64,000 nucleotides of DNA from Oligoflexia bacterium. Its GTDB lineage: Bacteria; Bdellovibrionota; UBA1018; CAIPTA01. The notes below the pieces were generated by a model. It searched no databases, was not told where the DNA came from, and saw only the letters and a program-made list of their open reading frames with translations. Both the position numbers and the translations under genes were made by a program. The stretch covers positions 1-64,000 of the forward strand of contig JAMLID010000001.1 in the NCBI GenBank assembly GCA_023954355.1, in the 5' to 3' direction. Shown here in pieces: positions 30,477 to 42,629 of the stretch (position 1 is the stretch's first letter; each line of letters opens with the position of its first letter).

Positions 30477-31257
30477 TTTTTTTTGCTTCATTCCAAAATT
30501 TATCTAATTCATCTAACGAAAAAGATTTCATTGGCTTGCCTGTTTTGTTTACTTGTTTTTCTACATAACGAAAGCGCTTAGAGAATCGATCAAGCATTTC
30601 ACGCAACGATTCTTCAGCATCAATTTTTAGTAGAAAGCCCAAGTTGCTTAGACAAAAAATTAAATCTCCGAGTTCTGATTTAATTTTTTTATTATCCTTT
30701 GTATTTAATGCCTCTAAAAATTCATTTAGCTCTTCTTTTGTTTTTTCAATAGGCCCATCTAAATTACTCCACTGAAATCCCACCTCACTAACCCTTTTAA
30801 TAATCTTAGTGCTTTTTGCGAGAGCTGGTAGTGTATTTGGAATATCATCAAGTACGGAAGAGCGTTTTTTTTCTTTCTTTTTTTGCTCTTCCCAGTTTTC
30901 GTGTATTGCTTGCTCAGAAATGGTTTCAGGATTTTTAAATACGTGAGGATGTCTTTCAATTAATTTTTTATTCAGCGAAGTGCAAACATCAGTAAATGAA
31001 AATAAGCCTTTTTCGTGGGCAATTTGCGAGTGTAGTAAAATTTGTAAGAGAAGATCTCCTAATTCTTCTTTTAAATTGGCAGAGAAATTTTTTGCTTCTT
31101 CTCCTTCGTCTAAAACGGCTAAGGTTTCATGACATTCTTCTAGTAAAAATTGACGTAAGCTAGAAAACGTTTGTTTTTTGTCCCATGGACATCCATTTTC
31201 ACTGCGAAGTGATTCAACTGTTTTTTCTACTTCATGAAGTGGTGATGGCTTTGTCAT
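30451..31257 (-). CDS. mazG: Nucleoside triphosphate pyrophosphohydrolase MazG
   Basis: A 268-residue two-domain MazG that hydrolyses NTPs/dNTPs to the monophosphate. The N-terminal domain has CPWDKKQTFSSLRQFLLEE and the EExxE...ExxD metal motif (LLEECHET and KEELGDLLLQILLHS). The second domain repeats it (KTKEELNEFLEA, SELGDLIFCLSNLGFLL). Full length. The start overlaps the mscS stop by 26 bp, so it is coupled to the upstream membrane genes; the 3' end overlaps the convergent PilZ-like gene. Confidence 0.95.
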   Translation of the reverse strand: MTKPSPLHEVEKTVESLRSENGCPWDKKQTFSSLRQFLLEECHETLAVLDEGEEAKNFSANLKEELGDLLLQILLHSQIAHEKGLFSFTDVCTSLNKKLIERHPHVFKNPETISEQAIHENWEEQKKKEKKRSSVLDDIPNTLPALAKSTKIIKRVSEVGFQWSNLDGPIEKTKEELNEFLEALNTKDNKKIKSELGDLIFCLSNLGFLLKIDAEESLREMLDRFSKRFRYVEKQVNKTGKPMKSFSLDELDKFWNEAKKINSAEELA

Positions 31258-32326
31258 TAGATTGCGCTGGATTTACATTTTCTACATAAATTTTTCTAGT
31301 CGGATAAGCAAAGTCTAATCCCGCTTTACGGAATCTTCTGACTAGCTCTACGGAGATTTCGTGGTGCTTTTCTACAAATACATTATAGTCTCTGCTATGA
31401 ATCCAGTAGACTACTTCGTAATCTAAAGAAGAGGGGCCAAAGCTTGCGAGAAAGCAGCGTTCTAGGCGAACGCCCTCAATATCTTCAATGGTTTTAGAAA
31501 TAATCTGTCTTGTTTCATCAAGTTTTTCGGTAGGAGTTTCGTAAAGAATCCCTACAGTAAAAGCAAATCTTCTTTCGCGCATTCTTCTAAAATTTTGTAT
31601 TCGGCTTTGTAGAAGATCTGAATTTGAAAAAATAAGTTGTTCTCCAGTGGCACTAGTTAGTCGTGTTGTTTTTAGGCCAATATGCTCAACAGTTCCTAAT
31701 TGACTTCCTACTTGAATAAAATCTCCAATTACAAAAGGTTTATCTAAAACAATAGAAAGTGAAGCCAATAAATCACCAAGCACGTTCTGAACTGCTAGTG
31801 CAACAGCTACACCCCCAATACCAAGACCAGTTACTAGAGCAGCAATATTTACGCCGTAGTTATCAAGTAAGAGCAGTAATACAAAAACCCAAACAAATAT
31901 TTTTGCTAAAAAGCCTAGGGCTGAAACGGTAGTTGCACGGCCACCATCATCTGCTTTTTCTGCGGCCGCTTTTACATAGAAATCAATAATATAAATTGAC
32001 CAGAGCGCAATTTGTACAATGATCGAAAAAACTAAAATGCCCTTAGTTAAAGTTAGAACTTTTCCTTCAAGTTGAAGGCTTGTAAGTGAAGTAGATAAAG
32101 AAAAGAGAAGAAAAAGAGGTAGCTTAGTTCTATCAATTACCGATAGTGCAAGATCGTCGATAGTTGTAGTTGTTCTTGATGCTATGGCTTTTAAGCGTAC
32201 TAAAATAATGGTTTTGACAATCCATAGAGTAGCAAGAATGGCAATAAACATCAAAATGGCCGAGACCCACTGCTTACCAGAGTTGCCTAGAAATTGGAGT
32301 TCTTCTAAAGTTTTTAAAAAATCCAT
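31232..32326 (-). CDS. MscS-family mechanosensitive ion channel
   Basis: A 364-residue inner-membrane channel protecting against osmotic downshock. Four or so hydrophobic segments precede the pore-lining helix GLGIGGVAVALAVQNVLGDLLASLSI (quoted here as GLGIGGVAVALAVQNVLG), the beta-domain motif DKPFVIGDFIQVG and GTVEHIGLKTTRL, plus a C-terminal cytoplasmic vestibule. A standard single-subunit MscS of moderate size. Directly adjacent to htpX (TAAATG junction) and overlapping mazG, so it is part of an htpX-mscS-mazG operon. Confidence 0.95.
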   Translation of the reverse strand: MDFLKTLEELQFLGNSGKQWVSAILMFIAILATLWIVKTIILVRLKAIASRTTTTIDDLALSVIDRTKLPLFLLFSLSTSLTSLQLEGKVLTLTKGILVFSIIVQIALWSIYIIDFYVKAAAEKADDGGRATTVSALGFLAKIFVWVFVLLLLLDNYGVNIAALVTGLGIGGVAVALAVQNVLGDLLASLSIVLDKPFVIGDFIQVGSQLGTVEHIGLKTTRLTSATGEQLIFSNSDLLQSRIQNFRRMRERRFAFTVGILYETPTEKLDETRQIISKTIEDIEGVRLERCFLASFGPSSLDYEVVYWIHSRDYNVFVEKHHEISVELVRRFRKAGLDFAYPTRKIYVENVNPAQSNDKAITTS

Positions 32327-39199: not shown

Positions 39200-41815
39200 A
39201 TGAAAGTTTTTCTTTATACTTTTTTTGTTTTCTTTGTTTTTTTAACTACAGCAATGGCTGAAGAGCCAATTGAAGAGAGTAAAAAAAGTATTTTAGTTAG
39301 TTCTGAAGAATCCACAAAGGAAGCGCCGCTTGATCGTGTAAAAGAAGCGGAAAATAAAAAAATTAAAAATGAAGAAGATAAATTAGCCAGGCAGTTTGAT
39401 GCTATAAAAACAGATTTTGTTAAAACGATCTCTGAAAAAAAGACCGAGTTAGTTGAGTTACAATTAGAACTAGGGGGCCTTAGTTCTGGGTCTTTAAAAG
39501 ACTCGTCGCAAGTAATTTCTGAAAAATTTTCTCGAATTGTGCAAATTTGGAGAGTATCAGCAGATCATCTTTTTATTTTATATCAAGATTCTGAAGCACT
39601 ACCTTTGGCAGAGCGATTGTCTGTATTGTTTTCTGATGAAGATTCTGCGGACTATCGTCAAAAATTGGAAGCAAATACAAAAGAGAAAAACCAAGATCTT
39701 TCTAGTTTAAGAATAAAATTAACTAATGAGCTGAAGGCAATAAATTTTCGCTTGGTCAGTGACGCTGGCGTTACTCGAGCAAAATTTTTGGAGCTTTGTG
39801 AAAAAACGAATTGCCAACGACCTAGAGGAATCAATCAGGATAATATCGAAGATTTAAAAAGAGAGTTTGCTCTTGTTCCTCTGCGATTGCTTTCTGGTGC
39901 GCTTAATAAGTGGATTGAAGTTCGGGCAAAATTTAATGCTGGAGTCGATGGGTGGATTGACCTGTTTAAACAGTTTATCGCATTACTTGGACTCTTAGCT
40001 GTACCATTGATTTTAACTAGAACTCTTCGTTGGGCATCAAGGCAATTAGATGAAATTCGTAAAAACATGCTTTCGCGCTCTATGCTCGACTATCGTAGAA
40101 GAACGCAGATTGCTATGTGGATCACTAGACTAAATCCATTTATCCCCTCGGTAGGGATGATATTGGCAATCTATTTCAGTCGTAAGCTAATTGAAAATAC
40201 CGACCTAAAAGAAATTTCTACTATTTTATATTATGTAGGTGCCTATTTTATTTATCGTGCTTGTCGTTTATTGCTGGCTATAATTTTAGATATTTTATTT
40301 TCTACTAGTGCCGTTGATTCACAAAATATTCAAAAGATTAAAACTGAAGCTTCTGCGGCAAGAATTTCTAGGTTACTTTTTATAGAGTTTGTTTTATTGC
40401 ATGTGACAGAAGATACGGTAAGAAGAGCGTTTGCTTATCAGATTTTATCGAGCTTAGTACTTTGGGTTAATCTATTCTTCGCTCTCAGTGAGTCCTCTAA
40501 GTGGAAACAAGAAATTATAACTGCATTTCGCTACAGATTTTCTAAACTTGAGCTTCGTTTGCAAAAAATATGGGATAAAAAAATATCCATAATTTTGATG
40601 CCGTTACTATTATTATTGATTACGTTTAACGACCTATTAAATTGGGCGATTTTCCATTTAGAAAAAATAGATTTTGTTAAAAAGATCTTATCTGAAGTAT
40701 TACGGAAAAAATTAGAGAGAGCAGAGAAAGAATCAGTTGATGAAGATTATTCGATCTCGGACGAATACCTGAAGCAGTTTGATTATTACTTACCTGCTAA
40801 TAAAGAAATTTATGTGAAAGACTCTGAGTCTATCGTTGATAGCTGTTCAACATTAGTTGTTGATTGGTTAGATAAGAAGGGGCAAGAAGATTTGCTTCTT
40901 ATTGTTGGTAACCGCGGTATGGGAAAAACAACTACCTTGGAATACCTTAAAAATCAAATTACAGATAAGGCAACTGTGTTTCATAAGAAGATTGAAGATA
41001 AATCTTTAGATGAAGATTCTATATTTCGACTTCTTTCTGAGGTTTTTGGTACAAGAATTCAATCGATTTCAGATTTACTAGATTTTGATGAGCGTCAACA
41101 GAAAAAAATCGTTGTTTTATTAGATGATATACATAATTTGTTTTTAGGAAAAATTCATGGATTCAATGGATACAAACTCTTTTTACGTCTGTTGAATCTC
41201 AGAACAAAAAATATCTTTTGGTGCCTCACAGTTAATTCGCGGGCCTGGTCTTATCTGAAAGGTGTTTTAGGTAAAGAACATTTTTATGGTGAAACAAAAA
41301 TACTAAAGCCATGGTCTGATATAGATATACAAAAACTAATTTTAAAAAGACATAATACGACTGATTTTAGCAGAACTTTTGACGAGTCTATTAAAGCATA
41401 TGGTGCAGGCGATGCCTTTGGGCAGCAGACCGAAATACAGTTTTTTAGACTTTTATGGGGACAATCTAGAGGAAACCCTAGATCTGCACTGATGTATTGG
41501 ATTTCGGCTATATCAAACCCCAGAGATAAAATAATTCATGTCGGAGTGCCGTCATTTGTTAGTTCGAGCTTGGTTTCATCTATGAGCGATGAGTCTCTAT
41601 TTATACTTGCAGCTATTGCAAGGCACGAAAGTCTAGACCAAGAAGAAATTTCTGAAGTAACCAGAATAGAGGATACAATCATTAGAAAATGTATCAATGA
41701 GTCTTTAGATAAAGAGCTGATATGGCTTGGGAAAGATAATAGATACCGCGTTTCTTCAAGGTCGCAATACGTGATTGACTATTTCTTAATAGGAAAGAAT
41801 TTTTTATATGAATGA
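39200..41815 (+). CDS. Membrane-anchored P-loop NTPase with C-terminal winged helix
   Basis: An 871-residue multi-domain protein. Order: signal peptide (MKVFLYTFFVFFVFLTTAMA), a charged helical periplasmic region (about 20-240), four to six transmembrane segments (about 255-490, e.g. FIALLGLLAVPLILTRTL and ISTILYYVGAYFIYRACRLL), then a cytosolic NTPase with Walker A VGNRGMGKTTTLEYL (about 565-580) and Walker B KKIVVLLDDIHNLFL, and a C-terminal winged-helix-like part (DESLFILAAIARHESLDQEE onward). The frame is open to a TTG at 39158; the ATG at 39200 gives a clean signal peptide. It overlaps an mscS gene by 8 bp. The architecture suggests an ATP-dependent regulator of the channel; no described family comes to mind. 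Confidence 0.8.
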   Translation: MKVFLYTFFVFFVFLTTAMAEEPIEESKKSILVSSEESTKEAPLDRVKEAENKKIKNEEDKLARQFDAIKTDFVKTISEKKTELVELQLELGGLSSGSLKDSSQVISEKFSRIVQIWRVSADHLFILYQDSEALPLAERLSVLFSDEDSADYRQKLEANTKEKNQDLSSLRIKLTNELKAINFRLVSDAGVTRAKFLELCEKTNCQRPRGINQDNIEDLKREFALVPLRLLSGALNKWIEVRAKFNAGVDGWIDLFKQFIALLGLLAVPLILTRTLRWASRQLDEIRKNMLSRSMLDYRRRTQIAMWITRLNPFIPSVGMILAIYFSRKLIENTDLKEISTILYYVGAYFIYRACRLLLAIILDILFSTSAVDSQNIQKIKTEASAARISRLLFIEFVLLHVTEDTVRRAFAYQILSSLVLWVNLFFALSESSKWKQEIITAFRYRFSKLELRLQKIWDKKISIILMPLLLLLITFNDLLNWAIFHLEKIDFVKKILSEVLRKKLERAEKESVDEDYSISDEYLKQFDYYLPANKEIYVKDSESIVDSCSTLVVDWLDKKGQEDLLLIVGNRGMGKTTTLEYLKNQITDKATVFHKKIEDKSLDEDSIFRLLSEVFGTRIQSISDLLDFDERQQKKIVVLLDDIHNLFLGKIHGFNGYKLFLRLLNLRTKNIFWCLTVNSRAWSYLKGVLGKEHFYGETKILKPWSDIDIQKLILKRHNTTDFSRTFDESIKAYGAGDAFGQQTEIQFFRLLWGQSRGNPRSALMYWISAISNPRDKIIHVGVPSFVSSSLVSSMSDESLFILAAIARHESLDQEEISEVTRIEDTIIRKCINESLDKELIWLGKDNRYRVSSRSQYVIDYFLIGKNFLYE

Positions 41816-42629
41816 AGCTGATTTAACGGGCGTAGTTGATTTTGTAGATGTACTAAGTTTTACAAAAGTATTTATGCTAATCGTTGGTGCCATTCTACTT
41901 GTTGGTTTGGTTAAATTTGTTGTTTCTTTGGGAGATGGGTTTAAAAAGAGAATTCCCTCAAAAAGACTTTTAATTGCTCAGTCTATAACGATCATTTCAT
42001 TTTTAATTTATATCTTAGGAGGTATTTATTTATTTTATGGAGTTGTACGGCCACCAAAATCTTTATTATTAGCTGTTAGTGGTACTTTGGCAGTAGCACT
42101 GGGTTTGTCTTTGAAAGACTTGGTTTCTTCTGTAGTGGCTGGAATCATTCTTTTATTTGATCGCCCTTTTCAGGTAGGGGATAGAATTTCTTTTAATGGA
42201 AATTATGGTGAAATTATAACAATCGGTCTTAGAGCAGTTCGAATTGTTACTTTAGATGACTCAATTGTGACTATTCCTAATAGCTCATTTATTACTGATG
42301 TTGTTTCTTCTGGAAATTTTGGTGCCTTAGATATGTTAATTGAAACAGATTTTCACTTAGCACTAGGTACTGATTTAGAAAAAGCGAGAGAGGTTTTGTA
42401 CGAAACAGCAGCAACAAGTCGGTATGTTTTTTTAAAGAAAGACATAACGATAGTCATGAATGAAGTAGCAATTGCTGAACGCTTGGCGGTGCGTTTTCGA
42501 GTGAAGTGCTATGTATTAGATGTGCGCTTTGAAAAGGCTCTACAATCTGACATTACCATTAGAGGGAATAAAGCTCTGATAGAAGCAAAAATAGAAAGGC
42601 CTGCGCTTTTTGTGAAAACACAAGGATAG
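41808..42629 (+). CDS. MscS-family mechanosensitive channel, partner of the NTPase
   Basis: A 273-residue short MscS core: three transmembrane segments (about 18-38, 52-76, 84-115), the Gly/Ala-rich pore helix LAVSGTLAVALGLSLKDLVS, the DRPFQVGDRISFNG and GEIITIGLRAVRIVTLDD beta-domain motifs and IPNSSFITDVVSSGN. It lacks extra N-terminal helices, which appear instead in the upstream NTPase protein. The 8-bp overlap implies coupled synthesis and a stable complex. Confidence 0.92.
   Translation: MNEADLTGVVDFVDVLSFTKVFMLIVGAILLVGLVKFVVSLGDGFKKRIPSKRLLIAQSITIISFLIYILGGIYLFYGVVRPPKSLLLAVSGTLAVALGLSLKDLVSSVVAGIILLFDRPFQVGDRISFNGNYGEIITIGLRAVRIVTLDDSIVTIPNSSFITDVVSSGNFGALDMLIETDFHLALGTDLEKAREVLYETAATSRYVFLKKDITIVMNEVAIAERLAVRFRVKCYVLDVRFEKALQSDITIRGNKALIEAKIERPALFVKTQG

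Follow-up and report, generated by a model that had tools for sequence, protein, structure and literature searches.

In the stretch of 64,000 nucleotides that was analysed here (the window), the gene for a membrane-anchored AAA+/winged-helix protein was found to overlap the gene for an MscS-type channel by 8 bp. Such overlapping genes are inherited together, with no exception found, in many bacteria and in at least one archaeon, and this suggests a channel that has a built-in molecular switch instead of opening by membrane tension alone. The reading that we favour is that the pair probably makes up one channel complex in which the upstream protein, as a regulatory subunit reserved for its own MscS, would gate or tune that channel. 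In textbooks, MscS channels exemplify the pore that membrane tension alone opens; if this reading is true, an entire branch of them is actively controlled from the cytosol. A published description of the pair was not found in the open-access literature, and one may exist elsewhere.

The overlapping gene pair

The features of the two genes, which were identified from their open reading frames and translations and from the analyses given in brackets, are the following.

39200..41815, + strand: upstream gene for the AAA+/winged-helix membrane protein, ATG start, 871 aa (open reading frame and translation)
39200..39259, + strand: hydrophobic, signal-peptide-like N-terminal segment MKVFLYTFFVFFVFLTTAMA, residues 1-20, ending at 39259 (hydropathy and sequence)
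39263..39937, + strand: helical, presumably periplasmic region, residues 22-246 (AlphaFold model of the N-terminal half, pLDDT 84.7)
39938..40669, + strand: membrane region, residues 247-490, five to six hydrophobic helices (hydropathy)
40790..41554, + strand: predicted AAA+ domain with lid, residues 531-785, ORC/Cdc6-like fold (VIA-align)
40907..40930, + strand: Walker A, GNRGMGKT, residues 570-577; the lysine is present in 39 of 40 Bdellovibrionota proteins
41108..41128, + strand: Walker B, VVLLDD, residues 637-643; D642 is present in 38 of 40 Bdellovibrionota proteins
41471..41482, + strand: GNPR motif in the lid, residues 758-761, within the most conserved stretch
41555..41812, + strand: predicted C-terminal winged helix, residues 786-871 (AlphaFold; the Orc1/Cdc6 alignment reaches residue 867-871)
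41808..41815, + strand: 8-bp overlap of both frames, ATGAATGA, with the channel ATG within conserved C-terminal codons of the upstream gene
41808..42629, + strand: downstream gene for the MscS-type channel, ATG start, 273 aa
42117..42305, + strand: MscS beta domain, PF00924 (Pfam)

The preliminary description of this DNA had reported two open reading frames with 8 bp in common, and these were recovered exactly. In most relatives the channel gene likewise starts inside the NTPase gene and the overlap is 8 or 11 bp. Because homologous pairs with the same type of overlap recur in dozens of genera, the NTPase-MscS arrangement is not due to chance. No RNA family was found at the pair and no promoter or terminator signal there was above chance. 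The GC content of the pair is 34.3% compared to 37.5% for the window, which is low but still inside the range of the window. Only one further match to the MscS beta-domain model exists in this genome. It is on the opposite strand (31232-32326), some 7 kb upstream, where genes for an M48 peptidase and for MazG flank it in a cluster that is unrelated to the pair.

The channel protein

When the 273-aa protein was searched against Pfam, PF00924 scored 69.8 bits (2.1e-19; cut-off 20.2) and PF21082 was also above its cut-off. Three N-terminal membrane helices, with hydropathy peaks at residues 21-39, 62-80 and 98-116, are followed by the beta and C-terminal domains, and the glycine/alanine-rich pore helix is present and conserved (GGSAAVAIGFALKD). 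E. coli MscS has the same layout, its pore subunit consisting of three helices followed by beta and C-terminal domains, but has no such partner as far as we know. The cut-off of the NCBIfam MscK equivalog was not reached by the 273-aa protein, which scored 67 bits compared to the 991 that are needed. The channels of the pairs have a mean pairwise identity of 51.6% and differ from MscS generally in forming a separate clade, apart from MscK and the other MscS proteins, in a FastTree tree in which E. coli MscS itself is not included; in the same tree this clade is not clearly sister to the MscK pores.

Conservation of the pair

Relatives of the NTPase were present in 66 other genomes of the 368 sampled in the phylum (about 18% of the sampled Bdellovibrionota genomes). 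The named relatives in the alignment-based genome scan were mostly from Bdellovibrio, Bacteriovoracaceae and Halobacteriovorax, with fewer from Gallionella and from Gammaproteobacteria, Spirochaetes, Rickettsiaceae and Alphaproteobacteria assemblies. At every uncut junction the channel gene lies directly downstream, which is the case for 39 Bdellovibrionota loci and for 51 of 51 uncut loci in the set of 85,000 species. No uncut NTPase gene without a channel gene was found, and the fragments in G224, G280, G294 and G325 all run into a contig end. In the phylum survey, MscS proteins scoring more than 240 bits occurred only in NTPase-positive genomes and were separated by a wide gap from the remaining MscS proteins, and a score gap between partner-type and other MscS proteins was also seen in other phyla. 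Nearly all carriers have one copy per genome and in several genera most of the sampled members are positive, according to the survey listing. The coupling of the NTPase to MscS that had been claimed from the single locus is therefore upheld, there being no uncut exception and the partner-type MscS occurring only alongside the NTPase in the phylum survey. The neighbourhood of the homologues, which had been proposed as a test, likewise displays conserved linkage to mscS and not the unrelated family free of such linkage that had been named as the contrary outcome.

Scans of genome and viral contigs with a single protein returned no relatives, because the NTPase diverges fast. When an alignment was used instead, no relatives were found in viral contigs although the same approach worked on genomes. 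The distance matrices of the NTPase and the channel were correlated with r 0.91 and none of 2000 permutations was as high, a correlation to which shared species history contributes.

The upstream protein and its AAA+/winged-helix head

A signal-like N-terminus, periplasmic helices, membrane segments, a Walker NTPase and a winged helix had all been described for the 871-aa protein, and all of them were seen again by hydropathy, motifs and AlphaFold. The model, with a mean pLDDT of 83, has a helical periplasmic part, a membrane bundle, an AAA+ domain, a lid and a winged helix. A long helical stretch occupies residues from about 51 to 246, and the periplasmic region is about 150 residues shorter than that of most relatives, many of which are about 1010-1050 aa long.

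By VIA-align, the head gave a Z of 16.2 to the Drosophila ORC-Cdc6 entry 7jgr and of 16.0 to the archaeal Cdc6/Orc1 2qby, and residues 519-867 align with 2qby over the AAA+ core, the lid and the winged helix in that order. The ORC/Cdc6 proteins 2qby, 2v1u and 7jgr share this order of domains with it at a Z of about 16, but the identity is about 13% and the protein described here is membrane-anchored, linked to a channel and without a replication context. By its modelled fold the NTPase is an ORC/Cdc6-like AAA+ domain, and the AAA_22 model of Pfam matches the 871-aa protein just over its cut-off. The preliminary description had assigned the NTPase to the STAND/KAP/ExeA type, an identity that neither the profile cut-offs nor the fold ranking support. 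In the window protein the STAND models of Pfam stayed below their cut-offs (nSTAND6 20.5 of 27.7, nSTAND3 19.2 of 27.2, NACHT 17.4 of 26.7), and KAP PF07693 had no match in it at E<=1 and matched 2 of 40 relatives at E<=0.01. STAND NTPases and bacterial NLRs share with this protein a P-loop switch ATPase that has a winged helix after it, but here there is no STAND model over cut-off, no repeat sensor region and no defence context.

Walker A and Walker B are both intact in the window protein. In an otherwise close relative (L056:7775-10810) the Walker A lysine is changed to arginine (GNRGMGRT). Mean pairwise identity falls from 42.9% in the lid to 38.1% in the winged helix, 32.8% in the AAA+ core, 22% in the membrane part and 19.5% in the periplasmic part. 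The lid and the winged helix are better conserved and are kept where the P-loop is gone, and this suggests that it is they that would make the functional contact with the channel.

Likeness of the membrane region to MscK

Hydrophobic segments lie at about residues 252-275, 313-333, 345-370, 388-407, 411-431 and 461-487 of the 871-aa protein by hydropathy, and the positive-inside pattern favours five spanning helices and one hydrophobic helix that would not cross the membrane, the number of passes being uncertain. MscK combines a channel core formed by TM7-11 with a peripheral bundle formed by TM1-6 and a periplasmic domain some 500 residues long (PMC9653487). When the membrane region of the NTPase was compared by hhalign with residues ~490-682 of an MscK-like protein, the match had a probability of 47%, and a second profile made from other sequences matched at the same place with 33%. 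The merged membrane-region profile matched MscK with 74%, which is below the level normally called proven. These matches were judged against controls only, because hhalign E-values near 1e-3 also arise between unrelated parts; 15 unrelated membrane families gave at most about 1% and reversed or block-shuffled profiles at most about 2%. With Foldseek, MscK (7uw5) ranked first for the membrane region, a weak match with E 0.25, and the superposition with MscK was poor (Z 8.4, rmsd 13.9 A). PF12794 (MscS_TM) had no match in the 871-aa protein, nor in 26 carrier and related genomes, with the E. coli control positive.

These comparisons lend moderate support to a remote likeness between the membrane region and the peripheral MscK helices. 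The earlier suggestion of an MscK split in two is moderately supported by the hhalign matches with clean controls and by the weak Foldseek match. E. coli MscK (KefA, 7uw5) resembles the pair in having an MscS-type pore and a helical periplasmic domain, and its peripheral six-helix bundle aligns remotely with the membrane region of the NTPase. It differs in being a single polypeptide without an ATPase, whereas here the putative sensor part and the pore have a gene each, and AAA+ and winged-helix domains close the sensor part.

Loss of the P-loop beyond the phylum

Outside Bdellovibrionota the pair was found on plasmids of Novosphingobium and Caulobacter and on a replicon of the haloarchaeon Salinirubellus. 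The upstream protein of Salinirubellus (L127:4883-5878) is soluble, measures 331 aa, lacks membrane helices and has a degenerate P-loop; it scored 27.8 bits to the family profile and its gene overlaps the MscS gene by 4 bp. Partner-type MscS was present in 20 of 398 Pseudomonadota genomes (about 5%) and in 20 out of 20 it is preceded by a gene in the same orientation. Of these 20 upstream proteins, 16 were recognised by the family profile at 45 bits or more, and the four that it did not recognise are P-loop-free forms. The Pseudomonadota proteins range from membrane-anchored ones with an intact Walker A, through those with GERGxG(A/S/T)TT, to soluble ones of 370-417 aa with little or no P-loop. 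By profile comparison the membrane-anchored group is homologous to the family at 100% over 683 columns and the P-loop-free group at 96.6% (hhalign, E 5.7e-10). In the soluble partners (L171-L176; 370-417 aa) the P-loop is degenerate or absent and the lid and winged helix are kept, so that they are pseudo-AAA+ proteins tied to an MscS gene.

In several lineages that still carry the pair, the Walker A lysine (K to A/S/T) or the entire P-loop is gone. Since the P-loop was lost in these lineages while the lid and the winged helix persist, an ATP-powered gate, judged from these sequences, cannot be the common denominator of the family. The ATP-dependent switch of the preliminary description is weakened, as a general principle, by the loss of the P-loop elsewhere. 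In the series from intact-ATPase to P-loop-free proteins, nature offers variants with which the use of ATP can be told apart from binding to the channel.

Proposed mechanism and alternative explanations

Starting from the paired genes and their conservation, from the AAA+ fold that is predicted and from the loss of the P-loop in some lineages, we infer a physical complex, its stoichiometry, its gating and an osmotic role, conservation of an operon being no proof of a complex. The MscS protein, like others of its family, would be a heptameric pore, and the periplasmic and membrane helices of the upstream protein would surround it like the outer sensor helices of MscK. The cytosolic ORC/Cdc6-type AAA+/winged-helix head would adjoin the cytosolic cage of the channel. 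Binding of a nucleotide, or possibly of another ligand, may alter the angle between the AAA+ core, the lid and the winged helix, and this change would shift the tension threshold of the pore up or down. Where the P-loop has decayed, the lid and the winged helix would still bind the channel and regulation would proceed without ATP hydrolysis. A likely use would be the controlled release of solutes or ions in osmotic or envelope stress. In cyclic-nucleotide-gated MscS channels the MscS pore is controlled by a cytosolic cNMP-binding domain; there the sensor is fused to the channel, whereas here it is a separate AAA+ protein. The fuller proposal, which we regard as a good possibility rather than a probability, is that the pairs represent an undescribed class of MscS in bacteria and archaea. 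The pore of such channels would be gated by nucleotide or ligand through an ORC-type AAA+/winged-helix subunit with an MscK-like sensor paddle, pseudo-ATPase versions without a P-loop included.

AAA+ proteins often remodel their partners, and the upstream protein could instead be a dedicated chaperone that assembles its MscS, inserts it or controls its quality and stays outside the working channel. The strict pairing and the overlapping frames would be in keeping with a chaperone whose translation is coupled to that of its client. The decay of the P-loop in several lineages is not expected, however, for an ATP-driven remodeller, and the large periplasmic region together with the MscK-like membrane region is more like a sensor, and we consider this explanation unlikely. 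The regulatory subunit that we prefer has also to be set against a device for defence or killing, a role that the preliminary description had called imaginable; a STAND-like NTPase would then sense phage or damage and open the channel, leaving the cell depolarised. Such a device might be read from the weak sub-threshold matches to STAND, NACHT and NB-ARC profiles, the NLR proteins among the Foldseek matches and the scattered distribution outside some genera, but the pair matched no PADLOC system (only mads_8, over 26 residues, E 0.0013), and the PADLOC matches among neighbours were isolated and generic, at most 9 of 149. There were also no phage copies and just a handful of plasmid copies, the gene is single-copy in nearly all carriers and most sampled members of several genera have it, and the partner MscS evolves slowly, as its mean identity shows; a role in defence was accordingly not borne out and is quite improbable. 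Least probable of all is a one-component transcription regulator that merely shares an operon with mscS, since, although winged helices of the ORC/Cdc6 type bind DNA and the fold match is to that DNA-binding type, the neighbours besides mscS are not conserved, so that there is no recurring target gene, and a regulator of many genes would not be expected to be bound so closely to a single channel clade.

Gene neighbours and history of the pair

No third conserved gene accompanies the pair and no common neighbour names a pathway. The commonest neighbour families were AstE/AspA (6 of 149 neighbours) and RimK (5 of 149), at about ten loci and in several arrangements. A cluster of AstE/AspA, RimK and RimB-like genes is found no more than about 8 kb from the pair at L035, L039, L042, L047, L048, L066, L102, L105, L106, L111 and L112, one alphaproteobacterial assembly included, and in some of these loci a further MscS paralogue is part of it. 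How well Pseudomonas aeruginosa tolerates hypo-osmotic conditions is controlled by its rlo operon, through RimB-related Rlo proteases together with an ATP-grasp protein (PMC12239564). The neighbours at about ten loci and this related, not identical, operon hint by analogy that the pair may be linked to osmotic physiology.

When 57 genomes sampled from the class to which the window belongs were searched with the protein, the pair was absent from all of them, which points to either horizontal gain or repeated loss. In a quick NTPase gene tree the window protein falls in a clade of 10 members drawn from five families, and this clade, together with the absence of the pair from the rest of the sampled class, suggests that the pair may have been transferred horizontally as a unit. 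In several unrelated loci a second, divergent MscS gene adjoins the pair (L053:2996-3874, L072:7136-7996, L112, L122 and L126:6696-7634).
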